Source: Argopecten irradians (lineage: Eukaryota; Mollusca; Bivalvia; Pectinida; Pectinidae). Taken from it: a DNA stretch of 64,000 bases. The DNA lies in NCBI RefSeq assembly GCF_041381155.1, contig NC_091147.1, positions 33,126,909 through 33,190,908 of the forward strand, read 5' to 3'. The notes beneath the pieces are model-generated. The model did not search any database, had not been told where the DNA came from, and was given only the letters and a program-made list of their open reading frames with translations. A program made the position numbers and the translations under genes. Below are positions 39,429 through 60,959 of the stretch, piece after piece; the first letter of the stretch is position 1; the number at the start of each line of letters is the position of its first letter.

Positions 39429-41239
39429 TAAGAAATAATTTACAGCAATTCCTTTCAGATCCTTTACTCTTACATTTGTTCCTGAGAGGTGACTTGAGGT
39501 CTTTTTGGAGCTAGTGCCTGGGCTGGTGTGATCAAGGACGGACGAACATTTTTGATTTGGTAAAGGGATGTAAGCTGTAGTTAATAGTTATACGGTCACT
39601 TTCGTTGCCTTCGTCCTGGTGGGCATTTCTAATCAATACGTCGCTCAGTTAGTAGAGCGGAAAACTAATAATTTACTAATAATACTAATAAGTCTCGTCT
39701 AAGCAAGGGAAGAGACTACTGTTCACAAAGGGATGATACCCCCTTAATGGATTATGGTTCTCACCTTGAATTTCTAAATGAACACATCGAAACGGGTTCT
39801 TTCAAATTCCCCCCCAGTCCATAACGACACCACAATGGTTTCCTTCTATGATTGAAAGGTGTTGATATCAAATTGTACATACCTGCTGAGACAGTTGCTT
39901 TGGAAAAGACGACTCAGGTTAAATCGTAGCAAAGAATCTCTTATTTCGTGGGCCTGTAGATGAAAAAAAAACCAAAAGTGTATCATTTGATGTCGGAAAG
40001 CCATAGCAAGTGTCACTATTTGCATATTTATTTCCTCAAAGTAAAACTGTCAATGTGCTATATGACCTCTTTGTATGAAATTGTTTTATTACCAAATCAG
40101 TTATGAAATTATGTTAAAGTTTTAAAGCAGAACTCATTCCGGTATATCATATGATATTTTGGTGATAAAACACAATATTTGAATCTATCATTAATATTCA
40201 TTTAAAAAACACTTTGATAAGATACATTTACCAGAATGGATACCAAATATGAAATATACAATGCATCGTGGATAAAAATACATAACCTTTTATTTGAAAA
40301 ACCATACATGTTGTTACAGTGTATAACATCGCTCATCAAATGGGCTTAAAAATGTGATTACAAACACAACAAATAGATCACGGCCACATACACATTTTAG
40401 GACAAATTCAAAATTAGGGCTATTGTTATGGGCTATTGTGTATAAAGTGGTGATGAATGTATGTTTGGTGGACTGAGAGGACCTTCTGTGTGAGGGCGTT
40501 TGTGTAGGATGAGGCTGTCCTTTGGGCCTCAAACCTGACAGTCTTCCTCATAAAAAGGGATGATGAAATATATTTTTGTTCCACCTAAAATATGAAAAAA
40601 GCTATGATTTGCATCTTGGTTGAAAGAATTGCATTTTCTAACATGAATTGTTCTGCGCTTATGATTAATAAAAACCGAATGGTTTGAATGTATATGTTCG
40701 ATTAGGGACTCTACCATGTGATTTGTTTGATAAGGTAAGAGCAATCGAAAGTGCTGTTGACACAATTAACAAGAAAGACAGTATCTATAGATGTACGCCT
40801 ACTTCTCATTGCAATGGAGGATTAAGGAGCTTATTCCGTATTTGCATATTAAAATAATTATCTGCTCATTGCGAATAGTTATGGATTGTGGTGTTATATG
40901 TTTCAGATTGGCAACGTTATATACTTCTTCAAATAAAACGACATGTGCTGCGCTCATAAAATAAGGGGATGGAATACATTGCAATATGCAGAGACGGAAT
41001 AAATGTCAGCTTAAAGACATAGAAATATAATTCAAATGCACTTTAAAATTAAAATCTTGGACAATGGATAGCATTAACTGAAATTCGATATGGTTTGGCA
41101 AGGAGACTATATCTGAGAAAATCTTTTAATTCTAACTTCCTCACTAAGACTTGATTAAACCAGAAATGCCAAAAAACTTTTACCGTGACCCAATGTTTTA
41201 AATCCAAAACGATTTTGAAACGGTACAACTAATGTAGAT

Positions 41240-42436
41240 ACTTATCTCATGTCAGCAATCATGCATCCATAACCTTTCACGTATGTTACATACCTTTGAA
41301 TTCAATTTTTCTCCAATCCAGGTGATGTTATAAAAGTAATTCAGCCCCAAAGGAATAATTACAGCATATATATCAGATCCACCGAATCTTCGGGCAAATA
41401 AGATCCTCACTAGATTGGCTGTAGACGAGGAGAAGCAGGGTAGTCGGTTAAGGAGTAGACAAAATCTAGAGTAACATGGACAAAGAAACTGAAATTACGT
41501 GGGTTAATAGTCTGAACGAGGTCGTTCTGGGTTTGTTGTTGTACTTCGATATTGCCTCCTCAAACCATTTCTTTCTGCGTCTTGTGCGATTTTCATTTCG
41601 TAATGATAGTGTCTGATTCTCCGGGTGTGATCCCCGACTGTACTCAGACACAATCATTGGAACCAGTTAACGATAAAGACCCGACAATTACTGGAAACAC
41701 CAAAGGAACATATAGCTGATTTTCTGATGAGTAGAAGAGGTAATCGGTATTACTTTCTCTGAAAAGTTATTATATTCAAATTTATATAGTAGAGTTAAGG
41801 AAAATTGAGTCTTTCAGGTTTTTAATTTGTTTTTTAAAAGCAGCAAATTGTAGGGCCAAACATTGAGATAAAACAAGGTGTTTAGAAAACAGAAGATAGA
41901 TTTGTGGAGCCGATCAATCTGAAAGCGTCTTTTTTGGATTTGTTCTTGTATCCAAGCAATATTACCGTAATTGTTCTTCGTACTTGGTCAGGCAGATAAA
42001 ATCTTATGGAAATATTTAGTCAGATAGATATATCTGACCTATGGTAGAAGATAGGTGTTCTCCATAGATAACAAGTTAACACTAATATGGTCTTGATTGT
42101 CGCCCTGAGTCAAGGAAAATTCAAAATGGACAACTTTCTTAAAAATTCGACGGAATATATCAGCGCTTCGGCAAGTGCGACTGTTGCCAAAATTAGACGA
42201 CACACGCGTTCTTTATTCTTTGAACCACGTCGGTTGATATAAAACGAAAATAGGATGAAATATTCGTTTTGTTAACATGATCACGCTTTGCTTTCTTTCT
42301 GGTTCTGCATCTCCTACAACAGGCCTCTCGATTAATCTCACATTTTGACATCATCAGACAACAATTAACACCGTCTGAGGGTGAATCCTTGTGTTTTGAA
42401 ACTCAATATTTTGTATTTTTTTTCTCCAGACTTAAT
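41240..42436 (-). pseudogene. Gustatory-receptor-like gene, D1 copy, frame-disrupted
   Basis: This is the counterpart of the open frame at 58350-59368. The same nucleotide sequence can be followed throughout, but there are about a dozen or more small insertions (for example around 41335, 41400, 41440, 41490, 41580, 41990 and 42240) and some substitutions, so no long frame survives. Nearly all differences are extra bases in D1. It is either a decayed paralogue or an unpolished assembly copy. Confidence 0.75.
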
Positions 42437-43961
42437 CAACGATTATTATCGGTTATATCCACTAGCATTTGATTCATGTATTTCCCTCTAAAATATTCAT
42501 CAAGTTATATGACTGATTTCAACAATATGGCATTATTTATAAAGAATCAGTATCTGATGTCACTACTCCATGCGTATATTTTGATTGGCTGATTGACTAT
42601 CTATTCCTAACGGGCTTATTAATCGTGTTTTGAAAACCACTCAACTTCTCTATTTTCCTAATGGATTAATAAAACCAGGCTGAATTCTGTCAATATGACC
42701 GTTTTTAATTCTTTTTATTTTACTACAAAATTGAACACAAAAAAATTATTAACGAACAAAATCAAACTCGCAATAATGCCCCTAAGTGTAGCTGTTCATT
42801 TGTTTCATCTCTGCAAACATTTAATCGTTCTCTTTGTGTTTGAAGAGCGTAAGTATTTCCCCGGGGATAACTTGTCAAAAAGGACGAGTGATCACTTACT
42901 TCAAAGCTCTATTACAGGTGCGAACCATTATCTTCAAGTGTATTCATTCTGATGATTTGATTGGTAAGAGGTAAATTCACATGACGTGATGGCCGTTAGG
43001 TAACAGAACGTATTTTCGCGTTCAAATGCACTTTTGTTTGATATCCATCTAATGTGTAAATGGTATATACAAATCGTGGATTATATTCTTTATAACACTG
43101 CCTAAAATATATCCTGACTTCATATGTCAACTTGAAAATAAATTTTCTTCCTATATAGTCAAATGATTAAACTAATCTTTTATAAATATGGCAAGCAGAT
43201 AATAAATCTACCTATATGGAATAGCGTGTATGACCAAACGATGCGTTCAGAATAAAGACAGACTAGGTTATTCCACCGTGAATGATGTTATCCTTATATT
43301 TGTTAAAAATTTTTACTTTATCCTCACAACAAACGATAATATATTCTTTTTTATATTTCTTTTATTTTCAAAAACATTTCATAGCAATGCTATATGACAT
43401 TATATCAAACAAATACAACACAGAAAGTGTCATAAAACATTCATCCACACTTTCACTATCAATGTTTTTTTAATGAATTAATTGCCTATTTTTATAAAAG
43501 AAATAGAAAAATTGGCAAAATGACAGAAGGAGAAGGAGATGTGCAGGGAGGAGAAAAATATAGAGGGGGAGATTTGAGAATAAGGATATATAGAGACAAG
43601 GCTGGGCAGAATGAGGGGAGAAGAAGGATAGAATGCACTTTTAACTTCTATAACTGATTATATATGTAGTGATTTGCTAAATTGCAAGAAATTAATTATA
43701 ATATTCAATACATGTACCATGTGTGAAAAAAGTGAAAAAATAACATAGTTGAACATATACACACATTAAGTAGCACATAAAATGAACAGTGTTAAAGAGT
43801 CAAGGTTTAGTCTAAAAGACAAGACTTTCAAGTTTTAACCATTTTTTCCAATCATTATTAAATTTCTCCAAAAAAATCACCTTTTCCAAACATTATATAT
43901 TTTTGCACAGTATAATAATCTTTAACGTAATTGACCAATCTTATAGCATTAAGTGAATTTT

Positions 43962-45190
43962 TTAGCATTTAGTTTTATAAATGTAGTGTTTAATAAAGAG
44001 TAAAATTTTATTATCAATTCTGTTATATATTCCAATATGGTTGAATATTTCAAAAATCATTGTTTCTTTATTGATAGAAAAGGGTATAAAAGATATCAAG
44101 TAGTTTTTAAAAATCAGATAAAAAAATCTGTACTTCAGTACACTCCCACAAGAGATGGGTAATTGTCTCCCTTTCTGCAAAGCAGAATATATATTGCGGA
44201 TTATTAGATAAACCTATTTCAAAAAGATAAGCATTTGTTGTCAAAATATGATGTGAAATTCTGAATTGTAACAGCTGCAGTTTAGTATTAATAGTGGCCC
44301 GAAGAGGAACATAATATGCTTTTTCCATAAATCTTGGTTATAGTCAAATATCCCCCCTCCACACTTAGTTTGGCTAGTAATGCTAGTTTCATTTTGAATA
44401 AGGATTTTATAGAAATCCTGAGATCCACGTGTCTTTTTCAGTATTATTTATAAATTTAAAGGTATTGTTGGAAAAAATAACTCTTTTAATTAGGATAAGA
44501 GACGTATTGAGATAACTTTTAATACCCACAATTAATCCATGATATCCGAGAAAGTTACATATTCCGCCATGAATGTCACACAAATCCATAAAAGATAAAA
44601 AAAAAGTTCCACTAGTGATATCTTTCATTAAGTCTTGTAAACATGTTATTCCTTCATTAAAGATGGCACATTTTTTCACTATCAAAAACAGAAGCAGACG
44701 ATTTAGTATTTTTCTTCAGTTACAAAAGTTACTTACTTTACACCATTACCACCATTGAAAAGTTTGAGCTTCTAATTTTACTTCATGTTAAAAATATGAA
44801 AAATAATTAATTGCATCCCGAAAAAATTCCGTGTCACTATATCCTATATGGAATGAAGTACTGATTGCGCATGCACCAAAGGCAAAATGAATTAATTTAA
44901 TTATTTTTGGTGTTTATTAGATATATACAATGTATATATATATACGATTAAACACCAATTATTGTTCAAATTATAAATATCATTTAAGCTCTGTCGGCGG
45001 TGGAGCATCTTTAATAAATTTTGAGTAAAAAACAGATTTATTCCCAATTTTTATGTTTTCATTATACCATATTGGTGATTTTAAAACAGATATATCAATA
45101 TCATTTTAAAGATTTCAATCTTAAATTATACCATGATTTAAAAACATCTACCCAGAAAGCATTTTTTTATCCTTTTCATTACAATATTTA
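43962..45190 (-). pseudogene. L1/Tx1-like LINE ORF2 3' remnant, D1 copy
   Basis: On the minus strand 45190-45012 encodes fragments such as NAFWVDVFKSWYNLRLKS and SPIWYNENIKIGNKS. After an inserted repeat (44683-45011), 44682-44407 reads KKCAIFNEGITCLQDLM and NFLGYHGLIVGIKSYL, and 44328-44107 reads LQFRISHHILTTNAYLFEIG followed by a zinc-binding FCFAERETITHLLWEC. This is the C-terminal region after the reverse transcriptase in L1/Tx1-type LINEs (zf-RVT-like). Frameshifts and the insertion make it inactive. Confidence 0.78.
44683..45011 (-). mobile_element. ~320-bp MITE-like repeat inserted in the LINE, copy 2
   Basis: Reverse-complement relative of 6495-6815: GATGCTCCACCGCCGACAGA at its right edge, CAATAATTGGTGTTTAATCG and GGTGTAAAGTAAGTAA inside. 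It splits the LINE frame between NKSVFYSKF and VKKCAIFNEG. Confidence 0.7.
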
Positions 45191-45550
45191 AGTAGTCACT
45201 GCCACAATTGGCCAAAAAAGAAAACTTACCTTAAAGAAAAAAAACCACACACACCCGAAAAAATCATTATAAATAATGTAGTCGCGACCCAGTACCCCCC
45301 TTTCATCGGTTTTCGACGGCGTAAGACCAAAATAGATTTTTTACACACAATGTCAAACATATTCAATTCAAATCATTAATTAAATGTTTCAGAAGCATGT
45401 TAATGATGTTTTTGTGCTATATTTCATAAAGTTCATCTACTTTACGAAGCATTGTATCGACAAACACAGTAAGATACAATGTAGCCTACAGTAGGCCTGC
45501 TGTTTCTTTTTCTTTTTGTCAAAGTGACGTTTAAATGATAAAAAGTTTCA

Positions 45551-45656
45551 ATCTCAGTCAATCAGAAGCAACGTTACAAACGGCGACGCCATTTTTTATG
45601 GGCTGATAAAGTAAATTTTAAGCCAATGAAAATACTCGTAACAAGCAAAATTGAAT
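45551..45656 (+). repeat. Interspersed ~105-bp repeat, copy 2
   Basis: Matches 1582-1692, including CAATCAGAAGCAACGTTACA and GGGCTGATAAAGTAAATTTT. Confidence 0.7.
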
Positions 45657-46451
45657 TATTTTGAATTCAAGCTCTTTCTAGTCTTAAAAACACATGGTTA
45701 AAATTGTGTACGCCCAATATTATTTTGTGTATGGGGATGTTGTGTATGTATGTGTGTGATAAGATTATATGATGTGGTCAAAGGAGACAACTTAACTCTA
45801 ATTATACGAGTTATGCCTCTAAGTCTAAGATTTGTCGAAAAGGACAATGGACTGGACTTGGAACCAAACAAACGTGTTCTTGTGTTGTGGAGAATTAAGA
45901 CATGTGGAGCGAGTTCCCGAACCCAACCTCAGTTATATGACACAACTGTAACCTATTGTACCGTTCGGTCGGGTACGAAAAGTCCCTTTGTGTCCAAGTG
46001 GAGCATTGCCTCCGGAAATCACTCGGGCACAGTTTTCTATACCTTTTGTAGGTGTCCAATCATTTTATGCGTATACGTGCATTTATATATCATTTTTGTC
46101 TAAAACAAACATAACGACCCTTCTAAATATCTACCGTACAACTCACAAGATGTCAAATCAACAATTTTAAGACTTGCCGAATAAACTCAGTCCGGAAAGA
46201 CCTGTATTGTGTATGCGTAAAAATACTGCTGTCTCGCTGTGAATTTGATATTTTATACGGCTTAATTTTATTGCTTTGTAAATTAGAGATATAAAACAAA
46301 TACTTTAAAATGCATACAAACATTTTCATAATGATTTGTATGATCATTACTTTGCTCCTTCAGCAGTAATAGGCACCAATTGTAGCTCTAAAGACGATAC
46401 CATTTTCTGTCTAAAAGTCTGTTGAGCTACAATAATACAGCTAGTTTTATC

Positions 46452-47015
46452 CACATTATTTGGGACAAGAAGTCCCTGTGTCCTCGTAGGACTAAGGGTC
46501 CCATTCTTCTTGGTAGGCAAGAAGCCCCAGCCACATTATTTGGGACAAGAAGTCCCTGTGTCCTCGTAGTTCTAAGGGTCCCATTCTTCTTGGTAGGCAA
46601 GAAGCCTCAGCCGCATTATTTGGGACAAGAAGTCCCTGTGTCCTCGTAGGACTAAGGGTCCCATTCTTCTTGGTAGGCAAGAAGCCCCAGCCACATTATT
46701 TGGGACAAGAAGTCCCTGTGTCCTCGTAGTTCTAAGGGTCCCATTCTTCTTGGTAGGCAAGAAGCCCCAGCGGCATTATTTGGGACAAGAAGTCCCTGTG
46801 TCCTTGTAGGACTGAGAGTCCCATTCTTCTTGGTAGGCAAGAAGCCCCAGCGGCATTATTTGGGACAAGAAGTCCCTGTGTCCTCGTAGGACTAAAAGTC
46901 CTATTCTTCTTGGTAGGCAAGAAGCCTCAGTCGCATTATTTGGGACAAGAAGTCCCTGTGTCCTCGTAGGACTAAAAGTCCTATTCTTCTTGGTAGGCAA
47001 GAAGCCCCAGTCACC
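46452..47015. repeat. 80-bp tandem array (7 copies), left subterminal repeat
   Basis: Unit contains CATTATTTGGGACAAGAAGT, TCCTCGTAGGACTAAGGGTC and CTTGGTAGGCAAGAAGCCCC. GGGACAAGAAGTCCC is an imperfect palindrome. A partial unit (CCTTATTTGGGACTAGAAGT) follows and runs into the stop codon of the PHD-containing ORF at 47044. AGGCAAGAAGCCCCAG is the reverse complement of the motif repeated in the right array. Confidence 0.95.
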
Positions 47016-47043
47016 TTATTTGGGACTAGAAGTCCCTGTCTCC

Positions 47044-48198
47044 TTATTTTCCTTTTTTACCTTTTCCTCTGCCTTTCCCTTTGCCTTTTCCTTTTGAAGA
47101 TTTGCAATGAACACAAAGCCATTTTGAATTTGATTTTTTCAAAAATGTCTCATTCCCCTTTAGACCAACACACTTGTAATGATACCAAGAGTTACACACA
47201 TCACATGCAAGGCTTTCTAACAGTACACTAGATGGTTCCCATTCACAAACAGTAGCACACTCTTTACACAAGTATTCATCGTCTTCTTCTACTTCAGGAG
47301 TAGGCATTTTCCTCTTTTCACCCTTTTCCTTAGTTTTTTTTTCTCCTAGAGCCTGTAGCTTCTGTCTCAACGCCTGCTTCTTCTTACGAGGGATTAGAGT
47401 TTTGAATGTATGCAAACCTTCCAAAAGTGCAATACGAACAAAATGTTCATTGACAACACTGTAAAGGTCAAGTAGAAGAGAAAGGAAAACTTCATCTTCT
47501 GTATCATCCAATGTGTTTGAAAAAAGTTGGATCCATTCGTCCAGCAGATCTTCATTATCTCCCAAACCCTGTCTACAAACAATATGAATTTTTTCACCAT
47601 GCAAATGAAAAGATTCAGGTGACATGTACACTTGTAGAACAGAATTTAACTTCAGGAAATAATTGAATACTGAATCATTAACAATACGGAGGCCTCTACT
47701 GGCCCCTTGGCGAAATTCTATTTCAGCAAAACTGTCCTGATCCGTAGATTCAGCCATATCAGTTTCCTGGATTTGTAGCTGTTTGAGCAGATTTTGCTTG
47801 CAGTAGTTGAACTTGCTAGAAAATTTGCATGTTTTACTCTTTCCAAGACTTCTGATAACTGATTGGCGCAATCGTGAGGAAATTTTGTGAATGCAGGCCC
47901 CTGCAATATAACGAAGTTTTGCTTTAGCAGCATCTGAAAAATCAGTATCCGTGGATGAGCCGGCTTGATGTTCAAGGTCTTTTGCTTGTGAATCAATTAT
48001 CATTTGGGAGCGTTGATCAGTTTCCTTTTCAAACAGCCACATGCATAATTTTGTGGAAAATTTGTTTTGTGATTTTGAAATTTTCACACACTTAAAAAGC
48101 TTTTGACACTGTCCTAAATAAAAATCACTGACAAGAAATGTATTAAGTTCCTTCAAGGCCCCTGTCCACTCTGATGACTTTTTAAGTTTCCTTTGCCA
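47044..48198 (-). CDS. PHD-finger region downstream of, and probably fused to, the PIF1 helicase
   Basis: An open frame of 384 codons lies between 48198 and 47047 with stop TAA at 47044-47046. The N-terminal two thirds are helical and include LRYIAGACIHKISSRL, a motif reminiscent of the segment after the catalytic core in P/THAP9-type transposases. A basic linker (PRKKKQALRQKL) follows. Then comes a PHD-type zinc finger with the order C..C, then CDVCNSWYHYKC, then WLCVHC, and a lysine/glycine tail (KGKGKGKGRGKGKKGK). PHD fingers bind histone tails. The frame has no ATG near its start and lies one base out of phase with the helicase. Skipping base 48199 joins the two as EVWQRKLKK into a product of about 891 residues. 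The break may be a mutation, a sequencing error or programmed; fusion is the more likely original state. Confidence 0.75.
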   Translation of the reverse strand, partial: WQRKLKKSSEWTGALKELNTFLVSDFYLGQCQKLFKCVKISKSQNKFSTKLCMWLFEKETDQRSQMIIDSQAKDLEHQAGSSTDTDFSDAAKAKLRYIAGACIHKISSRLRQSVIRSLGKSKTCKFSSKFNYCKQNLLKQLQIQETDMAESTDQDSFAEIEFRQGASRGLRIVNDSVFNYFLKLNSVLQVYMSPESFHLHGEKIHIVCRQGLGDNEDLLDEWIQLFSNTLDDTEDEVFLSLLLDLYSVVNEHFVRIALLEGLHTFKTLIPRKKKQALRQKLQALGEKKTKEKGEKRKMPTPEVEEDDEYLCKECATVCEWEPSSVLLESLACDVCNSWYHYKCVGLKGNETFLKKSNSKWLCVHCKSSKGKGKGKGRGKGKKGK

Positions 48199-48951
48199 TT
48201 ACTTCTAAAACTTTCGCGTACAGATACTGCACATGTTTTTTGAGGATCTCTGTTTCTCCAAATCCTGAAGGTTTGTCCGAAACACATGGTGAGCCTTTAT
48301 TTAATTCCAGGAATTCTTTCACATCCCATGGACATTGCCGATGAAGATTAATATCAGCTTCACTGTCACTACTTGGTGATTCATAAGGTTCCTCATTGTC
48401 GTAGTCCTCTGATGACTTCTGGCTTAATGTCGATGTATCCTCATCTACGGTATGACGACAACAGCTTAGATCTTGTGCAAAGTCTAAAATCTGCTGATGA
48501 TAAAAATCATACACTTCGCCAGGATGCTTCAGATGGGCAGCTGCTGAATTATAGTTTACAACTCTGAGACCTTTTTTATTGACTGCTCGACCAATAGCAA
48601 CTCCCATTTGTCCAGGTGAGAAAAATGAGAAACAATCAACTTCTAGATATGGAATAGTTTGTCCCTGTGCCCTATGCACAGTCAACGCAAATGCCAACTT
48701 TACAGGGTATTGAAGTCGAGTAGCTAGTGTTACTTTTTTGGTTTTATCATACACTTCAAACTTTGTAAGTGGCACAGGAACATTTTTTCCAGCAACAGAT
48801 ATAACAGGACCCTCTTCAGTTAATTTGGTCACTACTCCTCTTGTTCCATTGAATAGGTTATGCTCAAGATTTCTGATGAGGATGACTGGAGCTCCAACTT
48901 TTAAGAGAAGATTCTTTGGGGCGGCACTGTGCATCAGAAGCTTTACTTCAC
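48182..48951 (-). CDS. PIF1 helicase exon 5 (C-terminal motifs)
   Basis: Begins after the acceptor ATTTTTACAG, encodes LKVGAPVILIRNL, LTVHRAQGQTIPYLEVD and MGVAIGRAV, then an acidic serine-rich tail (EEPYESPSSDSEAD). TAA at 48182-48184. Confidence 0.9.
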
Positions 48952-51900
48952 CTGTAAAAATAATAAAACAAATTTTAAGGAAAATGATTTACACATGAGT
49001 ACACAGGGATACGGATTAAAACGGACTGTCAGTTTTGACAAGTTATACTGTACTGTAAATGTAAAGCCAACATATTACAATTTTGAAAATTAATACTCCA
49101 TACCCTTTGCTACATAAAGATTAATCTCAGACCTAAGTATAACAAGAAAATAACAGGCAGTGACAGAGATAATCATTGCAAACATTATCCTGTAAGTCAA
49201 CATGGTCATAATGTAAGTCACAGTGATCTAATTGAGTTCAGATAAGATATTTCATGGAAATTCAAAACTTCAAATAAAAATTAAGAACTGACATGAATAT
49301 AAATATGACACAGAATTCAATAGTAGAAGAGATTTAGAAAATTTGCATAGCCAATATTTTATTAACTTGTACTAGTATAATCTTTCAAGTAATATGTATA
49401 TACAAACAATTACACATTATGTACCTTCATCAACTGACTTATAGACTTTATCATTTCCATCAATACTATTGAGCATCTCATGGTTGATGTAGTCAGCATC
49501 AAAATTGGTGCCAAAGAGTTTCACAACATCAACTGCATTATGCAGAGGTCTGCTCAATCTCCGCAGGAGTTGTTCAGTCTCTTTTGAAGGATCACCATCA
49601 CACAGTTCATGTATAGCCTGCACCAAATCCTCTTCATTTTGTCTGACAACCTGAAAGAAGCATTTAAATACACTTATCTTCAAATGTTGAACAATAATTT
49701 ACAAAAGCTAGTGTCATAATAAGACAAATAGATCTATACATTTACTTATCAATATACAGTTCCTCAACATCCTGTCACAAAGTGACACATTACCGTATAA
49801 TGAATCTCATAGAGATGTGAAGAAAAACCGGAGTACCAGGTAAGGAGAGAAAAACAGTTGTCCCACATGGGTTTCTAACTCACTAACCAGGAGTAGAGGG
49901 TTAAGTGATGATGGCCGGAACACCTAACCATGAAGCTGAAGTGGTCTCATCTTTACTTTGAATAACAAAGTTATGACTTAACTTATTTGAAAGGTTTATT
50001 TACTTATGCTCAAAACTGACTATAAAATTGATAAATGCAGAGTGATGACAGAGGGTGTATCTTTCTATACACATATGATACTAAGGCAGCCTGTACAGAT
50101 TTTTTTTTTTTTTTTTTTTTTTTAAATATTTTAGAGATTTAGAATCTCACACTAACATCTCTTATTCTGTTGGATATCATTTTTCAGGAATAGAGAGAAA
50201 CTTATAGTTTGAATACACATAGTTACTTGTTGCAAGTTTATGTGATGTGGGAAAGTCTTCTGAAACAAAGGACTGAGGAAACAAAAGGATCCATCATCAT
50301 CAAATCTTCTGTTTGGCACTGGAGGCAGCTGTTTAAAATCTCCGTTGGCTATCACCTATAACATGAATGACATTATTTTAAATATTCTCATATTGATAGA
50401 CGAAATGTCACAGATACAACCTTACAAATTAGCAAACACACTATAAACACCAAGTTATTTCTTCAATATTATGTTCCTGTTATCTGTATATCATTAAAAA
50501 AACCTATTTGTAAAGTCAGGAAACTGTTAACTCTTAATCAAGTATGGATTGATAAATTTAGACAGTAAAAAACAGGACCACCTTAACCACTTGAACAGAG
50601 CTGCCCTAATTGCCATCAAAATTACCTGCAGTCCTCCAAATACTGATGTATTTCCTCGAACATATCGACACACAAACTCCAACATTTCCAGCACAGTCTT
50701 GGACATCATTCCTATCTCATCAATGACTAGAACATTGCTTTTAATGATTCTAGTTTTGGCTGACTGGAAACGGTCATCAGTATCAAACAATATCATCAGA
50801 TCTTCATGTGTATGGCGACAATCCATGATCCCAGACCAGTGATGGATAGTTGTAGCACCAAGTCCTAGTTGGAGACTGGCCATACCAGTCATAGAAGTGA
50901 CTGCGACATCTTTTGTTTTTTGCAACTCTTGAATGATACATCTAAAAAATAGCAAAGATATGTTTAAAACAATAATTCTTTACACAATTATTCATAATAT
51001 TGCCACATTTAAGATCTGCAAATAATTTACTGAAGCTGTTATTTCATTATTCAAAAATGTGTCAAATTGACAATATGTTTACATGTAACCTTGACCTTTA
51101 TTGAAAGGTCAAATAGGTTAGAATTATTTCAGCACTCTGATTTAACTTTGGTCAAACCTGTAAAATAGATTGAAACTGATCCCATTATAGTTCTACAGTA
51201 GCTCTTAACAATTTTTGATGATACAGACAGGTTTACCCAATTAAGTAAAGTTTTGTTGTCATTGTCATGGTAACCATATCAATAATAACACATTTATATT
51301 TGTGTATTGAGTCAATTAACTATAACCAATCAGAAATATTGAGTCAAATTAGATTAGGAAGATAGTAGTTTCATTACTTAAATCATTAAATTGAGCATTA
51401 GGTTCATATGTTAATCTTATTTTTCTTCTGCTTACAGGTTGATGCTGAACTATTGTGAAGGAAATGATGACACAGCCTTATATTTGAAGGACATATATCA
51501 AACGTGCCTCCAGTTTCACAATGCTTGTAATATTGTGCCTCCAAGCAAAGATATGATAGCTAGGTTAATACCAAAGCTTTTTCATACACAGAGCTCATTT
51601 AAATATGAAGACAGCATGAGATACGTAGTATTTAAGCGTATGACATTGAGACAGTCACCTTCAACTGAAGAAAACTGGTCCCTGCCTCCAAATTGCTCTA
51701 TTTCCATGTCCCAGGACAATGAAGTTACAGTAACATTTCCAACACACATAGTTGTCAATGGAGAACAGCAGACAATAACTGTCAAATTTGGAGTGCAAAA
51801 CACCAACCTTTCTGTAAGAAATGTGAATTTCTCCTTTGGATATGTAATTAATCCATCTCAGAAGAACATCAGCGGATTATTTGATTTCTTCCAAAATGTG

Positions 51901-54900
51901 AAGTTCTGTAAAGGAATTGATAAGCAGAGAAGTATCCCAAGATCATCTGTTACAGAAACAGTTACCAACTTGTTAGGTGATGAAAAAGAAAAAGTAACAC
52001 GCGTCGCCGCGTGCAAACTTTTTGTTAACTGGAACACAAAACACAACTCCTGTGAAAGCTGTCAACAAAAAGAGTGTCAGAAAAGAAAGCTGTTAGAGCC
52101 GTCACCTCAGCCCACTAAACCCAGTACATCATCGAACAAGGATAACATTACAGAGGTTAAATCTGATGTTTCTGGCAAAGAAAATGAGGTACCAGTTATC
52201 CTTGATCAAAAGGAGCATGATTACATGTCTCAAATCCTTGACAACCTGCTCAGTGCTGATGTTCCAAAGAATTTCAAGCTACTACTGGAGTCTCAGTCAA
52301 GAAACTGTAAGAAGGGATTGGATGTTCACCAAAGGCGTTGGGATCCAGAAGTTATAAGTATTTGTCTCAGTCTCTACTCAACCTCCCCCCAGACCTACAA
52401 CCATCTGTTGCAAAGTAAGATGTTAGTTCTCCCATCAAAAAGACTTTTGCAGTATTACAAAAACTCCATAAAACAGACACCAGGCCTGAATGCTGACAAT
52501 CTGAAATGGATGCAAAAAGAATCAGAGAGACAAGGAGTGAAAGACTTTGGAAAACGAGGAGGGCTAATAGTGGATGAAATGGCCATTCAAGATGATTTGG
52601 TTGTTACTAAGCAAGGAAATGCATGGTCAATAGTAGGTGGAGTTGACATGGGAAAACTGAATAATGATATAGATATCATTACTGAAAGGCAGCATAAGGT
52701 AAAGTTAGCTACCCACGCTCTGCAATACGTTTTCCATGGATTTAGTGGTTTCAGATGGCCAGTAGCATATTATGGAGCTAATCCTGCTACAACTCATCAA
52801 CTTTACAACACATTTTGGGAATGCGTAGACAAGCTTGATGACTATGGCTTTACAGTTGAGTATGTTATGCTGGATGGTGCTACAACAAACAAAGCATTCA
52901 TGTCTATGCTATTTCAAGGACCACCAAGGGAAGTTAATTTTCAATTCCCCGATATTTACTACAGACAGCACATGATGTGTGCTATCCAAGACATTATGCA
53001 TGTCCTGAAAAAAATCAGAAATAACATTGAGTCTAGCACTACTGAGCACAAGACAGTGGGAGGAAGATATCTAGTGTTGAATGACAAGGCAATTGTTTGG
53101 GATCATTGGGTGGAATGTTTCAGATTCAACACTCAAGGTGGATTCAGAGTACACCGGAAACTAACAGAGGAACACATTTCTCTAACGCCTGCATCAAAAA
53201 TGAGGAACAAGCTTGCTGTTGATGTTCTCAGTAAAGATATGCTCTTCCTCATGAAGACATACCAGTCCACTCTTACAAATCCTGAGAAGCTGTCATCCTC
53301 CATTGATCTCCTGGAAAATACTTCAATTCTTGTAAGCATCTTTTGCGATTCCAACAGACCAGTGTCCAGTTCTGGAGACAGTAGGCTAAAACAACTCAGG
53401 GCTGTCGTAGATTTCTTCAATACCTGGGAGGAACAAGTGTATGAGTCCACAATATATATCAAAAGAAAGAACCTCATCACACAGGAGACCAGAGATGATA
53501 TAAATTCCTCAATTACTGGTTTCATTTCACTGTGTGAGCTAAACCTAAAGGATGGAATGTCCAGTATCAATCCAGGATTTTTAAACTCTGACATTGTTGA
53601 GAATTTATTTTGCCAACAACGAGGAGTCAAAAATGGGCTAAACACCAACCCAACACTCGCACAATATGGACCCTCAAATACAGCCATAACACTGGGACAA
53701 TCAACTGTGTCTTCTAAATGCAATTCTGGAAATAGGGCCATGTAATTCAAAGCAACAACACCATGTCCGCTGAATCCAGGTCAAAATAAGAGAAGAAAGC
53801 TGAATCAAATCAGAGTTTAAAGCATAACCACTGATACAAGTAATAGCTAGGACTTCTAGTTCTAATATGGAGGATGGGACTTCTAGTTAAGACAATAGAA
53901 TTATTTGAAGTCCAATTACAGACATTGTCTGTGGTACCACTTATTCACAGAAACAAGTGGATTCTTGCCAACCTAGGACACTGGGGCTTCTTGCCTAAGT
54001 TGAAAATTGGGACACTGGGGCTTCTTGCCTAAGTATAAGATTGGGACACTGGGGCTTCTTGCCTAAGTAGAAGATTGGGACACTGGGGCTTCTTGCCTAA
54101 GTAGAAGACTGGGACACTGGGGCTTCTTGCATAAGTAGAAGATTGGGACACTGGGGCTTCTTGCCTAAATAGAAGACTGGGACACTGGGGCTTCTTGCCT
54201 AAATAGAAGACTGGGACACTCTTCTTGCCTAAGTAGAAGATTGGGACACTGGGGCTTCTTGCCTAAGTAGAAGATTGGGACACTGGGGCTTTTTGCCTAA
54301 GTAGAAGATTGGGACACTGGGGCTTCTTGCCTAAGTAGAAGATTGGGACACTGGGGCTTCTTGCCTAAGTAGAAGATTGGGACACTGGGGCTTCTTGCCT
54401 AAGTAGAAGATTGGGACACTGGGGCTTCTTGCCTAAGTAGAAGATTGGGACACTGGGGCTTCTTGCCTAAGTAGAAGATTGGGACACTGGGGCTTCTTGC
54501 CTAAATAGAAGACTGGGACACTGGGGCTTCTTGCCTAAGTAGAAGATTGGGACACTGGGGTTTCTTGCCTAAGTAGAAGATTGGGACACTGGGGCTTCTT
54601 GCCTAAGTAGAAGATTGGGACACTGGGGCTTCTTGCCTAAGTAGAAGATTGGGACTTCTAGTCCCAACTATTATTAAGGAAATACAGTGAGGCTTCTTAT
54701 ATGCCGAGGAGACTGGGACATCTTGTCCCAATGAAAGAGAAATCGAATGTGGCTTCAAGTCCCAATGGAGGAAAAAGTGACTGGGACTTCTTGTCCACTG
54801 TGAAGACTGGGACTTCTAGTCCCAAATAAGGTAACTGGAGCTTTTAGTAATTTATCAAATGCTGATAAATCCACAAGAACTTGATGTTCTGTCAATAATA

Positions 54901-55561
54901 TACAGCATAAATATATTTTATGCTATATACAATTTTATTATTGACAGAATGTCAAGCTCCTGTGATAAATCACACTTCTTTAATCATTTAGGATATAGAA
55001 AAATGATCATATTCTAGTAAATAGATACAAGGACAAAACAAATTTCTGCTCTTTTTTTAGCACTCCTTCCAATTGACATAAACTTCAGCTTGATGAAGGT
55101 GGTCAGTACAATATAGATGTAGATATATGCTATAGTTAAACTTTAAACTGGTACATGCGTTTTCTTGGCAGAGCGACTGAAGAGTGATAATAATTTATAT
55201 ATATAAGCTGAATGTTGTTAATTTCATTAAAGATGAAACCATTTAACAAATGGAAGTCAAAGCTGTATCCCTATTATGGACGTTTTATACACTTTATAAG
55301 TATTTACATTTATATTGCATTATTGAGTTTATAAACTTCATGGAAATTCTCCATTGCTTTGGTTTACCGCCATTATTAACCAAATGTGCAGACACAGTAG
55401 CTACCGACTCTACAAAGGAATCGGCTGATTTATCTAATATGACATCATATTTCAAATACTTACTTCAACAAATATGTTTTACCAGTACCACATTGTCCTG
55501 TGATAATCACATTATGACCGTCAGCGACGGCGCGGAATGCTGACAGTTGGTCCCTGTTCAT
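48182..55561 (-). CDS. PIF1-family DNA helicase, five exons
   Basis: Exons 55464-55561, 50626-50941, 50227-50355, 49425-49650 and 48182-48951 splice with GT-AG borders and matching phases (2,0,0,1) into exactly 512 codons plus stop. The start ATG at 55561 is the first after an in-frame TAA. Motifs in order: Walker A GQCGTGKT, Ia VTSMTGMASLQLG, Walker B VLVIDEIGMMS, III GDFKQLPPV, and C-terminal TVHRAQGQT with GVAIGRAV. This is a complete superfamily 1B 5'-3' helicase core of PIF1 type, which unwinds DNA during replication and repair. Intron 1 (4.5 kb) contains the plus-strand transposase and the right repeat array. The frame ends in EVMAKET and the PHD region continues in another frame just after. 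The nearby transposase and arrays suggest it belongs to the mobile element and is not the host PIF1. Confidence 0.9.
49425..49650 (-). CDS. PIF1 helicase exon 4
   Basis: Starts VVRQNEEDLVQAIHEL after the acceptor CTTCTTTCAG and ends VYKSVDE plus one base at the donor GTACAT. Covers the linker between motifs III and IV-V. Confidence 0.88.
49790..49940. repeat. Degenerate SINE-like fragment in a helicase intron
   Basis: AAAAACCGGAGTACCAGGTA near 49827 recalls the GGAGTACCCGGAGAA body of the SINE at 28793-29028. The region ends in a tRNA-head-like GGCCGGAACACCTAACCATG. Confidence 0.4.
50227..50355 (-). CDS. PIF1 helicase exon 3 (motif III)
   Basis: Starts VIANGDFKQLPPV and ends FPHHINLQQ at the donor GTAACT. 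43 codons, phase 0 on both sides. Confidence 0.9.
50626..50941 (-). CDS. PIF1 helicase exon 2 (motifs Ia, II)
   Basis: The acceptor is CTATTTTTTAG and the donor CAG/GTAATT. It encodes CIIQELQKTKDVAVTSMTG through Walker B VIDEIGMMS to SVFGGLQ. Confidence 0.9.
51442..53745 (+). CDS. P-element/THAP9-like DDE transposase
   Basis: 767 codons from the ATG at 51442, stop TAA at 53743-53745. It carries the landmarks of the P-superfamily RNase H-like transposase in order: LIVDEMAIQ (first Asp, residue ~378), VMLDGATTN (second Asp, ~478), DIMHVLKKIRNN (the D-x-x-H-LK-IRNN motif, ~517), LTPASKMRNKLAVDVLS, and SDIVENLFCQQRG followed by N-NPT (catalytic Glu, ~720). The N-terminal 70 residues look like a compact helical or winged-helix DNA-binding domain, then a cysteine cluster (CESCQQKECQKRK) near residue 210. 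No THAP zinc finger (C2CH) is visible. A good acceptor (TCTTCTGCTTACAG) lies just before the ATG, so an upstream exon may exist. The gene lies in intron 1 of the opposite-strand helicase. All catalytic residues and the full frame are intact, which suggests recent activity. Confidence 0.88.
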   Translation: MLNYCEGNDDTALYLKDIYQTCLQFHNACNIVPPSKDMIARLIPKLFHTQSSFKYEDSMRYVVFKRMTLRQSPSTEENWSLPPNCSISMSQDNEVTVTFPTHIVVNGEQQTITVKFGVQNTNLSVRNVNFSFGYVINPSQKNISGLFDFFQNVKFCKGIDKQRSIPRSSVTETVTNLLGDEKEKVTRVAACKLFVNWNTKHNSCESCQQKECQKRKLLEPSPQPTKPSTSSNKDNITEVKSDVSGKENEVPVILDQKEHDYMSQILDNLLSADVPKNFKLLLESQSRNCKKGLDVHQRRWDPEVISICLSLYSTSPQTYNHLLQSKMLVLPSKRLLQYYKNSIKQTPGLNADNLKWMQKESERQGVKDFGKRGGLIVDEMAIQDDLVVTKQGNAWSIVGGVDMGKLNNDIDIITERQHKVKLATHALQYVFHGFSGFRWPVAYYGANPATTHQLYNTFWECVDKLDDYGFTVEYVMLDGATTNKAFMSMLFQGPPREVNFQFPDIYYRQHMMCAIQDIMHVLKKIRNNIESSTTEHKTVGGRYLVLNDKAIVWDHWVECFRFNTQGGFRVHRKLTEEHISLTPASKMRNKLAVDVLSKDMLFLMKTYQSTLTNPEKLSSSIDLLENTSILVSIFCDSNRPVSSSGDSRLKQLRAVVDFFNTWEEQVYESTIYIKRKNLITQETRDDINSSITGFISLCELNLKDGMSSINPGFLNSDIVENLFCQQRGVKNGLNTNPTLAQYGPSNTAITLGQSTVSSKCNSGNRAM
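53973..54656. repeat. 34-bp tandem array (~20 copies), right subterminal repeat
   Basis: Unit contains GGGACACTGGGGCTTCTTGC and CTAAGTAGAAGATT. One copy near 54211 lacks GGGGCTT. The CTGGGGCTTCTTGCCTA core is the reverse complement of the core in the left 80-bp array. Confidence 0.96.
54657..54835. repeat. Scattered GGGACTTCTWGTCCC-type motifs
   Basis: After the 34-bp array, GGGACTTCTAGTCCC occurs at 54651-54665 and 54815-54829, and variants GGGACATCTTGTCCC and GGGACTTCTTGTCC lie between. The last one runs into CAAATAAGG, the inverse of CCTTATTTGGGACTAGAAGT at 47016. These are candidate protein-binding sites. Confidence 0.7.
54872..54963. repeat. Hairpin with arms related to the right boundary sequence
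   Basis: CACAAGAACTTGATGTTCTG at 54872, continuing TCAATAATA, is inverted as TATTATTGACAGAATGTCAA ending GCTCCTGTG at 54963. The same sequence in direct orientation ends the element at 55934-55960. Confidence 0.75.
55464..55561 (-). CDS. PIF1 helicase exon 1 with Walker A
   Basis: Encodes MNRDQLSAFRAVADGHNV followed by IITGQCGTGKTYLL. The donor is AA/GTAAGT. It lies outside the right 34-bp array, so the element must extend at least to here. Confidence 0.88.
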
Positions 55562-55933
55562 CGCTGTTGTGTCAGTCAGTGTTTACATTCTCCACAACGT
55601 GTTGACCTACTTGATCATTCTGTGCGGAACAGCGGAAGTGTGACGTCAGCGCATGGATTCGGGAACGAAGTGAAGTTGGCGGTGAAATCAGCTAACTTTC
55701 AAAATGACTTTGGATTACACGTAATTATATGCGGTTGTGAAAAGGTTAGTGTTGATATATGTGAAGAATAACATCTTAATGTAATATCGGCGCGGTGACA
55801 CATGCAGACATTGCCCAGAACAAATTTTACAGAACTTTTACCGAAGGTGGTGAAAATTTTGGCCAGCGATGCATTTCATTCCTGGTGTTTTTATATAGTA
55901 TATAGGGGTATTTTTATATATATTTTTACTATA
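55562..55933 (-). promoter_or_regulatory. Probable promoter/5' flank of the PIF1 gene
   Basis: 370 bp upstream of the helicase ATG, GC-richer than its surroundings (TGACGTCAGCGC near 55640 and CGGCGCGGTGAC near 55788), with no other exon recognised. CRE-like TGACGTCA is present. The role is inferred from position only. Confidence 0.35.
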
Positions 55934-55960
55934 TATTATTGACAGAACGTCAAACTCCTG
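55934..55960. repeat. Candidate terminal repeat at the right boundary
   Basis: TATTATTGACAGAACGTCAA plus ACTCCTG ends precisely where homology to D1 begins at 55961. It matches the two arms of the 54872-54963 hairpin. No partner was found near 46450. Confidence 0.5.
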
Positions 55961-56333
55961 TGCATGAACGTATTCCACTCTTTTTGGCCAGGATTTAGTA
56001 ACGCGATATGTCTTAAATATGGGATCTTCTATGGGTGTAGTTTAAGAATTTTTGTTTTATACTGCGTGCATTGGCAAGCAAAAGTAAACCTTCAGGACGA
56101 GTTTAATAAATTATGTGAAATGAACACAAATTGAAGATACTTTAATCACATTCATTCAAACAAAGTTACGTGTCAAAAACATTTTAATGTTAAAATGAGC
56201 TGCAAAAAACAACAACAGGGCAATCATTTTGTCCCACCTTCATAGAACACCGAGGTCACGTCATCGGTCCTGACGTAAATTTTTGTATCTGACATTACGT
56301 CTCAACAATATTCCTCTTTTCGCCACAGCAAGG

Positions 56334-56577
56334 AAAATCGCTCCAGATTATATACCACTAGATAATACTAATAATGCAAAAATACATGGGCAAAGTTCAC
56401 CGTATACTAGGCCGAAGTGTAATACATGTTTGTGGAACATTTTGTAAGACTTACCGTTAAGATACTTGACGCATCAATAACAAACATATTGTGGACGTAT
56501 ATCCCTATTTGAGGTCCATTCACCTGTATCAGGAAGATTTGTACCTGTAATTGGAACTCAATGCATTATAAACCTAA
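56334..56577. other. D2-specific segment
   Basis: 244 bp with no counterpart in D1, in the place where D1 has 1.2 kb and a palindrome. No coding signal. Confidence 0.6.
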
Positions 56578-57754
56578 TTAAGAAATAATTTACAGCAATT
56601 CCTTTCAGATCCTTTACTCTTACATTTGTTCCTGAGAGGTGACTTGAGGTCTTTTTGGAGCTAGTGCCTGGGCTGGTGTGATCAAGGACGGACGAACATT
56701 TTTGATTTGGTAAAGGGATGTAAGCTGTAGTTAATAGTTATAAGGTCACTTTCGTTGCCTTCGTCCTGGTGGGCATTCCTAATCAATACGTCGCTCAGTT
56801 AGTAGAGCGGAAAACTAATAAATACTAATAATACTAATAAGTCTCGTCTAAGCAAGGGAAGAGACTACTGTTCACAAAGGGATGATACCCCCTTAATGGA
56901 TTATGGTCTCACCTTGAATTTCTAAGTGAACACCATCGAAACGGGTCTTTCAACCAGACCATAACGACACCACAACGGTTTCCTTCTATGATTGAAAGGT
57001 GTTGATATCAAATTGTACATACCTGCTGGACAGTTGCTTTGGAAAGACGACTCAGGTTAAATCGTAGCAAAGAATCTCTTATTTCGTGGGCCTGTAGATG
57101 AAAAAAAAACCAAAAGTGTATCATTTGATGTCGGAAAGCCATAGCAAGTGTCACTATTTGCATTCAAATTTATGTCCAAAAGTACCTTAACTGTCACTGT
57201 GCTATCTGACCACTTTGTAAGAATTGTTTTATTACCAATCAGTTATGAAATTAATGTAAAGTTTTAAAAGCAGCTATCCGGATACATAGGATATATTGGT
57301 GATAAAACACGATATTTGATATATCATTAATATCATTAAAAACACATTTGATAAGCTACATTTACAGAATTGATACCAAATATGAAATATACAATGCAAC
57401 GTGGATAAAAGACATAACATACTATTTGAAAAAACTTACATGTAGTTACATTTATAACATCCTCATCAAATGGGCTTAAGATTTGCTTACAAAATTAGAT
57501 CATGGCCACACACACAATTTAGACAATTCAAATTAGGATTGTTATGGGCTATGTGTTAAAGTGGTGATGAATGTATGTGTGGTGACTGAGAGACCTTCTG
57601 TGTGAGGGCGTTTGTGTAGGATGAGGCTGTCCTATGGCCTCCAACCTGACAGTCTTCCATAAAAAGGACAATGAAATATATTTTTGTTCCACCTAAAAGA
57701 AGAAAAAAGCTATGATTTGCATCTTGGTTGAAGAATTGCATTTTCTAACATGAA

Positions 57755-58036
57755 TTGTACTGCGCTGACAATAAAGCCGAATGGTTTGAACGTATATTTC
57801 GATTAGGGACTACCATTTATTTGTTTGATAAGGTAAGAGCAATCGAAAGTGCTGTTGACACAATTAACAAGAAAGACAGTATCTATAAATATACGCCTAC
57901 TTTTCATGCAATAGAGATTAAGGAGCTTATTCCGCATTTGCATATTAAAGAATTATCTGCCCTTGCGAATAGTTATGAATTGTGGTGTTACGTGTTTCAG
58001 ATGGCAACGTTATACTTCTCAAATAAAACGACATGA
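57755..58036 (+). other. Unassigned 93-codon frame in D2
   Basis: An open plus-strand frame containing FDKVRAIESAVDTINKKD and IKELSALANSYELW. The D1 counterpart (40690-40960) keeps only the first part in frame. It matches nothing I recognise and may be chance; the strand opposite could hold the missing last exon of the receptor gene. Confidence 0.25.
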
Positions 58037-58349
58037 GCTGCGCTCATAAAATAAGGGGAGGAAACTCTGCAATATGCAGAGACGGAATAAATGTCAGCTT
58101 AAGACATAGAAATATAATTCAAATGCACTTTAAAATAAAGTCTTGGACATTGGATAGCATTAACTTGAATTCGATATGTTTGGCAAGGAGACTATATCTG
58201 AGAAAATATTTTAATCTACTCCTCACAAGATTGGATTAAACCAGAAATGCTAAAAACTTTTACGTGACCAATGTTTTAAACCAAAACGATTTTGAAACGG
58301 TACAACTAATGTGGATACTTAACTCATGTCAGCAATCATGCATCCATAC

Positions 58350-59368
58350 CTTTCATGTATGTTATATACCTTTGAATTCAATTTTTCTCCAATCCAGGTG
58401 ATATAAAAGTATCCAGCCAAAGAAAATACCAGCATATAAATAAGAACCACCGAATCTTCGGGCATAAGATCCTCACTAGCTAGGCTGTAGACGAGGAAGC
58501 AGGTAGTCGGCAGACCAAATCCTAGAGTAACAAGGACAAAAAACTGAATTACGGGGTTAATAGTCTGAACGAGGTCGTTCAGGGTCTGATGTTGTCTTCG
58601 ATATTGTTCAACCATTTCTTCTGCGTCTTGTGAGATATCATTCGTAATGATAGTGTCTATTCTCCGGGTGATCCGACTGTACTCAGACACCAAAATTGGA
58701 ACCAGTTCACGATAAAGACCGACATTACTGGAAACACCAAAGGCACATATAGCTGATTTCAGAGAATAGAGAGTGATTGGTATTACTTTCTCTGAAAAGT
58801 TATTATATTCAAATTTATATAGTAGAGTTAAGAAAATTGAGTCTTCAGGTAGAATAGCAAATAGGCCAAACATCGAGAAAAAAGTGTACAGAAAAGAGAA
58901 GATTTGGGAGCCGATCAACTGAAAGCGTCTTTTTTGGATTGTTCTTGTATCCAAGCAAATACCGTATTGTTCTTCGTACTTGGTCAAGGCAGATAAAATC
59001 CTATGGACATATTTAGTCAGAAGATATAACTGACCTATGTAGAAGATAGGTGTTCTCCATATGTAACAGGTTAACACAAATATGGATGCTAGTCGCCCTG
59101 AGTAAGAAAATTCAAAATGTTCACTTCTAAAAATCGACGAATATCTCAGCGCATCGGCAAGTGCGACTGTTGCCAAAATTAGACAATAGGCACAATAACA
59201 CGCGATCTTTATCTTTGAACCAGGTGAATGATCGATAAAGAATCCCGACAATTTCAATATAACGAAAATAGGATGAAATATTCGTTTTGTTAACATGGTC
59301 ACGCTTTGCTTTCTTTCTGGTTCTGCATCTCCTACTACAGCCACTCGATTAATCTCACATTTTGACAT
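58350..59368 (-). CDS. Gustatory-receptor-like 7TM chemoreceptor (3' exon missing)
   Basis: Open frame from the ATG at 59368 (MSKCEINRVAVV...), about 340 residues to a probable donor (CATGAAAG/GTATGG) at 58350; without splicing it stops at 58319. Hydrophobic segments include IACYCAYCLILATVALADAL, LASIFVLTCYIWRTPIFYIG, a long loop with LVPILVSEYSRITRRIDTI, IQFFVLVTLGFGLPTTCFLV and VVLIYMLVFSLAGYFYITWI. This layout, six visible membrane helices with a cytosolic-type N-terminus and a loop rich in charged residues before TM5-6, fits invertebrate gustatory-receptor-like proteins, which are inverted 7TM ligand-gated channels. The TM7 exon with its usual TY...QF-type motif was not found and may lie downstream on the minus strand. 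The D1 copy at 41240-42436 is broken. Confidence 0.68.
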
Positions 59369-60959
59369 GATCAGACAACAATTAAACCGTCTGAGGTGAA
59401 TCCTTGTGTTTTGAAACTCAAGATTTTGTATTTTTTCTCCAGACTTAATCAACGATTATATCGCTTATATCCAGTAGTATTGGATTCATGTCTTTCCTCT
59501 AAAATATTCATCAAGTTATATGACTGATTCAACAATATGGCATTATACAAAGAATCAGTGTCTGATGTCACTGCTCCATGCGTATATTGTGATTGGCTGA
59601 TTGACTATCTATTCCTAACGGGCTATTAATCGTGTTTTGAAACCACTCTACTTCTCTATTTTCCTAATGGATAATAAAACCAGGCTGAATTCTGTCAATA
59701 TGGCCGTTTTTAAATCTTTTACTACCAATTGAACACAAACAAAAAAGTATTAATGAACAAAATCAACTCGCAATATTGCCCCTAAGTGTAAATGTCATTT
59801 TATCATCTCTGCAACATTTAATCGTTCTCTTTGTGTTTGAAGAGCGTAGTATTCTCCGGGGATAATGTCAATAAGGACGGTGTCACTTACTTCAAAACCC
59901 TATTACAGGTGCGAACCATTATCTTCAAGTGTATTCATTCTGATGATTGATTGGTATGAGGTAAATTCACAATGACGTGATGGCGTTAGGTAACAGAACG
60001 TATTTTCGCATTCAAATGCACTTTTGTTTGATATCCATCTAATGTGTAAATAGTATATACAAATCGTGGATTACATTCTTAATAACGCTGTCTAAAATAT
60101 ATCCTGACTTCATATGTCAACTTGAAAATAACTTTTCTTCATATATAGTCAAATGATTAAACTAATCTTTTATAAATATGACAAGCAGATAATAAATCTA
60201 CCTATATGGAATAGTGTATGACCAGAACGATGCGTTCAGAATAAAGACCGACCAGGTTATTCCACCGTGAATAATGTTATCCTTATATTTGTTAATTACT
60301 TTATCCCTCACAACAAACGATAATATGTTCTTTTTTATATTTCTTTTATTTTCAAAAACATTCCATAGCAATGCTATATGACATTATATCAAACAAATAA
60401 GATACAGAAAGTGTCATAAACATTCATCCACACTTTCACTATCAATGTTGTTTTTATTCAAATGAAAGAATTGCCTGTTTTTATAAAAGAAATAGAAAAA
60501 TTGTCAAAATGACAGAAGGAGAAGGAGATGTGCAGGGAGGAGAAAAATATGGAGGGGGAGATTTGAGAATAAGGATGTATAGAGACAAGGCTGGGCAGAA
60601 TGAGGGGAGAAGAAGGATAGAATGCACTTTTAACTTCTATAACTGATTATATATGTAGTGATTTGCTAAATTGCAAGAAATTAATTATACTATTCAATAC
60701 ATGTACCATGTGTGAAAAAGTTAAAAAAATAACATAGTTGAACATATATACACACATTAAGTAGTACATAAAATGAACAGTGTTAAAGAGTCAAGGTTTA
60801 GTCTAAAAGACAAGACTTTCAAGTTTTAACCATTTTTTTCCAATCATTATTAAATTTCTCCAAATAAAAATCACCTTTTCCAAACGTTATATATTTCTGC
60901 ACAGTATAATAATCTTAAAATGGAAATGACCAATCTCATAGCATTAAGTAAATTTTGTA

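Follow-up and report, generated by a model that had tools for sequence, protein, structure and literature searches.

The stretch of Argopecten irradians DNA described here (the window; 64,000 nucleotides of contig NC_091147.1, positions 33,126,909 to 33,190,908) very probably contains a 9.5-kb transposon of the P superfamily in its broad sense. It carries two nested, antiparallel genes, with a transposase gene lying in intron 1 of a gene that joins a PIF1 helicase, a middle domain and a PHD finger. It appears to represent a recurring type of animal transposon instead of a chance insertion. It has these features of the broad-sense P superfamily: an RNase H domain and fold, the DDE (Asp-Asp-Glu) residues, subterminal inverted repeats and, in a mini-element only, a 7-bp target duplication. 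A larger P lineage carrying a helicase and a PHD module had been proposed in an earlier note for the span 46450-55960. That proposal is supported by the position of both genes between the ends and by a consecutive gene pair in Tegillarca, and the span lies within 2 bases of the limits assigned here (Table 1).

The transposase is encoded on the plus strand by an open frame (51439-53742) of 768 codons from a TTG, or 767 from the first ATG at 51442. Its placement in intron 1 of a minus-strand gene, between exons 1 and 2, agrees with the earlier note. Both the TNP-like RNase H domain (PF21787, E 1.8e-16) and the P-transposase fold were found in the protein. The motifs VDEM, LDGATTN and VENLF, pointed out before, are confirmed and contain D379, D479 and E721, which we take to be the catalytic residues. 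In the profile alignment, the DG aspartate (window D479) falls on position 303 of the chain and the DIVE motif (window D718 and E721) on 528-531; these chain positions were counted by hand, and the first aspartate, D379, lies outside the alignment. D528 is described as a GTP contact in the consulted part of PMC7776569. The frame is not intact, contrary to its first description. Codons downstream of the stop at 53743-53745 align in the same frame with the relative P0001 to its final residue, and about 25 C-terminal residues have therefore been lost from the window protein. Among relatives whose C terminus is complete (11), the tail behind the catalytic glutamate is short, at 61-75 residues. Of the P/THAP9 landmarks claimed earlier, the P-type core stands, while the N-terminal THAP test detected no such domain in the transposase. 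An RFX-like winged helix was found instead.

Five minus-strand exons with GT..AG intron borders join into a 512-codon PIF1 helicase, as had been predicted. Pfam matches to PIF1 (1.1e-28) and the Pif1 2B domain (3.3e-10) were obtained in the spliced protein, and all helicase motifs looked for are present. The predicted PHD region is real (PF00628, 1.3e-6, in frame 47044-48156 on the minus strand), but it is not a separate module. In a tblastn search, the matches of the Saccostrea protein P0044 (894 aa) run in order from exon 1 through exons 2-5 to the PHD frame, and helicase and PHD finger occur in one protein in P0044, P0045, P0046 and P0049. The PHD finger is therefore the tail of the helicase gene, and the window copy is frameshifted. 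The closest solved structures for the finger are TAF3 (with the profile) and BPTF (with the window sequence), whose PHD fingers read H3K4 methylation.

A conserved and mostly helical domain, seen in a structure model of P0044, separates the helicase from the PHD finger and bears the motifs Y-[IL]-A-G-A-C ... RGL ... VF.FF. No Pfam family could be assigned to it among the best 25 of 39 matches for P0044 or, with all 20 members together, the first 25 of 76. The list of fold matches spans residues 14-420 of the P0044 model, which excludes this middle domain. The viral fold library gave no match at E 0.001 or better. Five PHD-bearing relatives (P0031, P0042, P0049, P0076 and P0110) carry the precomputed Pfam entry PF27108, which is absent from the matches of our own Pfam scan of four of the five. 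At the other end of the protein, Walker A was found in 6 of the 32 helicase models examined, and many models begin just after the exon 1-2 junction. Models that start past this junction would fit a distant exon 1 with a gene in intron 1; weak gene models could equally yield helicase models that lack exon 1.

The left end of the element reads CACATTATTTGGGAC.. from 46452, uncertain by about 2 bases, and the right end reads ..CTCCTGTG, its last base being 55962. Both genes lie whole between these ends, helicase exon 1 included. A subterminal array is found on each side, and the motif CAAGAAGYC accounts for 32 sites in the window, 14 on the plus strand at the left and 18 on the minus strand at the right, with zero elsewhere (0.66 expected). 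A second motif, GGCAAGAAGCC, has 23 matches, 7 left and 16 right, with opposite strands on the two sides, and the two sides share a 40-nt stretch of 93% complementarity. Near-copies of the left terminus repeat along the left array. The right terminal motif, CACAGGAGTTTGACGTTCTGTCAATA, is present at two further window sites, namely both ends of a 93-bp palindromic mini-element (hairpin z -8.1). The mini-element is flanked by an exact 7-bp ATAAATC (54865-54871 and 54965-54971), a duplication with a chance of about 9e-5 for a fixed place. Independently of the flanking duplication described below, it places the right end at 55962 and shows that the system produces 7-bp target duplications. An alternative end at the right array (54843), with helicase exon 1 outside, was dropped, as the flanking homology and the mini-element motif put the end at 55962.

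Table 1. Features of the element and its flanks (window coordinates)
Feature	Position	Strand	Remarks
Host segment U1, left copy	37840..46451	+	Direct duplication, 8.6 kb
Whole element	46452..55962	.	9,511 bp; limits of flanking homology and common right-end motif
Left subterminal array	46451..47044	+	80-bp units; 14 CAAGAAGYC sites on plus strand
C-terminal part: middle domain and PHD finger	47044..48156	-	PF00628; P0044 alignment
Frame change splitting helicase from middle domain/PHD in window copy	48183..48191	-	P0044 alignment
Helicase exon 5	48182..48951	-	Splice model and P0044 alignment
Helicase exon 4	49425..49650	-	Splice model and P0044 alignment
Helicase exon 3	50227..50355	-	Splice model and P0044 alignment
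Helicase exon 2	50626..50941	-	Splice model and P0044 alignment
Transposase	51442..53745	+	ATG 51442, early stop 53743-53745; within helicase intron 1
Right subterminal array	53976..54655	-	34-bp units, more single motifs up to 54843; 18 CAAGAAGYC sites on minus strand
Palindromic mini-element, 93 bp	54872..54964	.	Two right-end-type termini; inside larger element
Helicase exon 1	55464..55561	-	Start codon, Walker A; aligns with Saccostrea P0044
Right terminal motif CACAGGAGTTTGACGTTCTGTCAATA	55937..55962	-	Common to mini-element termini
Host segment U2, right copy	55963..63459	+	Direct duplication, 7.5 kb

The gene pair recurs in other genomes. The contig sizes of 24 transposase relatives, 18 PHD relatives and the 120 listed of 211 helicase relatives were compared by eye, and four contig sizes are common to the transposase list and the helicase/PHD lists. 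In Tegillarca granosa, consecutive tags and a single contig size (51,137,090) link KUTeg_016935, the PIF1-PHD gene, with KUTeg_016936, the transposase gene; joint recurrence of the modules is certain for at least this one bivalve besides the scallop. Two cases come from Mytilus coruscus, where P0047 and P0017 (contigs both 1,449,616) and P0037 and P0011 (contigs both 788,175) are placed on the same contig by equality of size. With these cases, recurrence of the modules together, one part of the check suggested in the earlier note, was found. The fourth size (58,541,600) belongs to the Tegillarca proteins P0003 and P0056, whose tags are far apart and give no evidence of linkage. Among the four linked loci, Tegillarca and Mytilus are closest to each other in both proteins, at 60.6-62.2% identity with the two Mytilus transposases and 61.0-63.2% for the helicase-PHD protein.

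Further copies are found within genomes. Argopecten irradians P0043 is 99% identical to the window helicase over 95% of its length, and its contig has the same size (39,156,874) as that of P0025, the window's own PHD frame. A second Argopecten helicase copy, P0040 (contig 73,140,430), is 97% identical over 51%, and Mytilus coruscus has several (P0047, P0050, P0054, P0061 and P0077). Two kinds of unusual record were met among the relatives. P0042 is one gene model that combines an N-terminal transposase half (26% identity, E 2e-24) with a PHD finger, and is either a rearranged form or a modelling artefact. P0020, P0079 and P0083 bear ABW185 tags and come from a metagenome bin filed under Sedimenticola, perhaps as host bivalve DNA within a symbiont assembly.

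The nesting could also be accidental, a stand-alone P-type transposon having landed in the intron of an unrelated helicase-PHD gene of the host or of another transposon. Such an event would agree with P elements in the literature, which contain a transposase gene only, and with the right array, which sits between the transposase and helicase exon 1; the arrays alone enclose exons 2-5 and not exon 1. It is nevertheless very unlikely, given that the left array is found past the PHD end of the helicase gene instead of next to the transposase, that both genes fall between the ends (46452 and 55962), and that the same pair is consecutive in Tegillarca and on equal-size contigs in two more cases. 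Helicase ancestry was addressed with a tree of 37 rows, comprising the window, human and 35 rows chosen by us from the 120 listed, with bivalve host PIF1 not among them. The window helicase groups with 15 element-like rows (10 of them named bivalve; support 100/98), and human and two fungal PIF1 fall outside this 16-row group. A grouping with single-copy host PIF1, which the earlier note had named as the sign of chance insertion, was not seen among these rows. Chance nesting in a host helicase gene is rejected on the recurrence and the ends, and the tree, within the rows it holds, agrees.

A domesticated locus, in which a fixed transposase-helicase pair serves the host, would account for the retention of long open frames and for a broad bivalve spread, with helicase relatives also in Haliotis and the nemertean Tubulanus. 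It appears very improbable in view of the multiple helicase copies (two or more in Argopecten, P0043 and P0040 among them, and several in Mytilus coruscus), the arrays, ends and mini-element, and the lesions in the window copy.

Several observations weigh against a recurrent transposon of the P superfamily with the ends given here. The majority of transposase relatives (20/24) share no contig size with the listed helicase/PHD matches, a figure to be read with the helicase list showing 120 of 211 and many contigs being short. Each gene of the window copy has one lesion (the helicase-PHD frameshift and the late transposase stop). The GTP-binding insertion PF21788 was found in one of the 15 members and not in the window protein; the fold alignment covers 274-732, the GTP-insertion region included, without separate scoring of the insertion. 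The ends are read from a single DNA copy of the element, whose own termini have only CACA and scattered bases in common; local alignment of the flanks found no long terminal inverted repeat, and the element itself has no target duplication. A blind search for a target duplication with inverted repeat around the element remained at background level (14 matches for 8 bp, inside the range of 7-26 that ten control regions gave; the 7-bp and 9-bp searches were run without control). Finally, scans of viral and prokaryote contigs gave no relatives of the element.

The element sits exactly between two direct copies of host DNA. Sequence 37838-46449 (U1) matches 55961-63459 (U2), and the breakpoints coincide with the element ends within 2 bases. 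In a pairwise alignment, U1 and U2 are 96.0% identical over 7,201 aligned columns; identity by bin reaches 98-99% at both edges and 91-97% between. The element is flanked by the unmatched sequences TTTTATC and CATGAAC, and each U copy starts with CATGAAC and ends with TTTTATC (one base shorter in U2). Because of these U-copy targets and unmatched element flanks, the duplication is read as a product of hybrid element insertion or sister-chromatid transposition. P hybrid element insertion is known from P-element genetics. Its most plausible source is an aberrant transposition: one copy would have supplied the left end, its sister or homologous copy the right end, and this pair of ends inserted nearby. 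A direct duplication, breakpoints at the ends and unmatched short flanks, as such a product would leave, are all present.

A rival to this account is a haplotype join, in which the assembly has set two divergent haplotypes in tandem around an element that is nonetheless real. The alleles of highly heterozygous bivalves show divergence and indels of the kind seen here, where the two copies diverge by about 4%, indels occur and 1.2 kb of U1 (38220-39426) lacks a good counterpart in U2. Two points make this artefact unlikely, if with an appreciable chance: the start of U2 coincides with the element's right end, which is set independently by the mini-element, and there is no N in the window. Two other features of the duplicated DNA were observed. 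A 377-aa frame (58319-59452, minus strand) is open in U2 and broken in its U1 counterpart (about 41248-42422, minus strand); it has no Pfam match, and by its look we take it to resemble a gustatory-receptor-like 7TM protein. The U1 stretch absent from U2 holds a near-perfect palindrome at 39263-39428 (94% over 170 columns), perhaps another small transposon.

A mechanism can be proposed. The transposase would bind the CAAGAAGYC sites, probably by its RFX-like winged helix, pair the ends and mobilise the element with a 7-bp stagger, using the DDE chemistry of P. Its partner, the helicase-PHD protein, may be an element-borne helper that acts at transposition intermediates or replicating ends, with the PHD finger anchoring it to histone tails. 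We infer from these parts that the element may be coupled to replication or chromatin, as the earlier note had also suggested. The duplication, read as above, requires two sets of ends next to each other once replication has taken place; more speculatively, this would fit a helicase linked to replication. A tentative and on balance doubtful extension holds that the P-type machinery has been split between a short-tailed transposase with an RFX-type reader and a helicase-PHD partner, in which the displaced ancestral P C-terminal domain survives as the middle domain. Ends would then be paired post-replication. The PIF1 motor would work at forks or between sister chromatids, the PHD finger would pick the chromatin, and sister-chromatid products that copy host genes, such as the duplication flanking the element, would be a regular by-product. 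The displaced-domain step draws on a presumed likeness between the middle domain and the tails found in P, THAP9 and hAT transposases.

Recurrence of the pair across bivalve species implies that the helper is of importance to the element. The P element is the textbook one-gene cut-and-paste transposon, and the scallop element could offer a system for testing the coupling of DDE transposition to replication and chromatin. Tandem duplication breaking at element ends is a possible route for multiplying host genes. Mollusc proteins filed as 'PIF1' or 'PHD-type domain-containing' would be re-labelled as transposon genes.

Elsewhere in the window, 32328-32846 (plus strand) encodes a helicase C-terminal domain fragment (PF00271, 1.2e-10), RecQ-like by eye and perhaps from another transposon. 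Long minisatellite arrays occupy 1700-4193, 15851-18940 and 20747-26613; their units measure about 21 to 46 bp. An Rfam scan of 37000-64000 and a tRNA scan of the window gave zero matches.

In a literature search by title and abstract start, with most subscription papers and Repbase outside its reach, no P-type element with PIF1 or PHD was found; an earlier or database-only description is possible. P is among the 17 profile superfamilies of a bivalve repeat survey (PMC10294476), and a term search of the available part of that survey did not find 'P superfamily', 'P element' or 'helicase'. The scallop element resembles Drosophila P and zebrafish Pdre2 (THAP9) in its P-type RNase H DDE transposase, subterminal inverted repeats and short target duplication, which is 8 bp in P and Pdre2 according to the parts consulted of PMC7776569 and PMC10983969. 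Unlike them, it has a PIF1-PHD gene on the other strand, an RFX-like winged helix with no THAP domain detected, a short transposase tail and a 7-bp duplication, the last in its mini-element.

Galileo, a Drosophila member of the P superfamily, has ends made repetitive by direct tandem repeats, target duplications of 7 bp and a record of rearrangements (PMC2775673 and PMC4168063, in the parts consulted), all of which recall the scallop element. Galileo carries a THAP domain, and an element-borne helicase is unmentioned for it in those parts; the scallop arrays differ from its ends in having two units (80 and 34 bp) around one common motif. Kolobok lineages likewise combine a DDE transposon with an added helicase or nuclease: in the consulted part of PMC9587614, KolobokH has RecQ, Kolobok-1_CCri has it on the complementary strand, and KolobokP is abundant in bivalves. 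Kolobok belongs to another transposase superfamily, its helicase is RecQ and not PIF1, and PHD is unmentioned in that part. A transposon-borne PIF1-type helicase is also known from Helitron RepHel, and the Helraiser structure 7lcc matches the helicase part of the scallop protein. Helitrons have a Rep domain and lack inverted repeats and target duplications; the scallop element differs from them in its DDE transposase and inverted arrays, and no Rep domain was found among the Pfam families listed at E 1 for the three proteins (for the helicase, among the best 25 of 49). DDE transposons with accessory helicases, and repetitive ends with 7-bp duplications in Galileo, are already known. For the flanking duplication, the closest parallel is hybrid element, sister-chromatid or reversed-ends transposition, which yields a tandem direct duplication with a transposon at the junction. 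In the consulted part of PMC3744419 this is a genetic observation in maize Ac/Ds, cited for P, and the scallop locus presents its footprint only.

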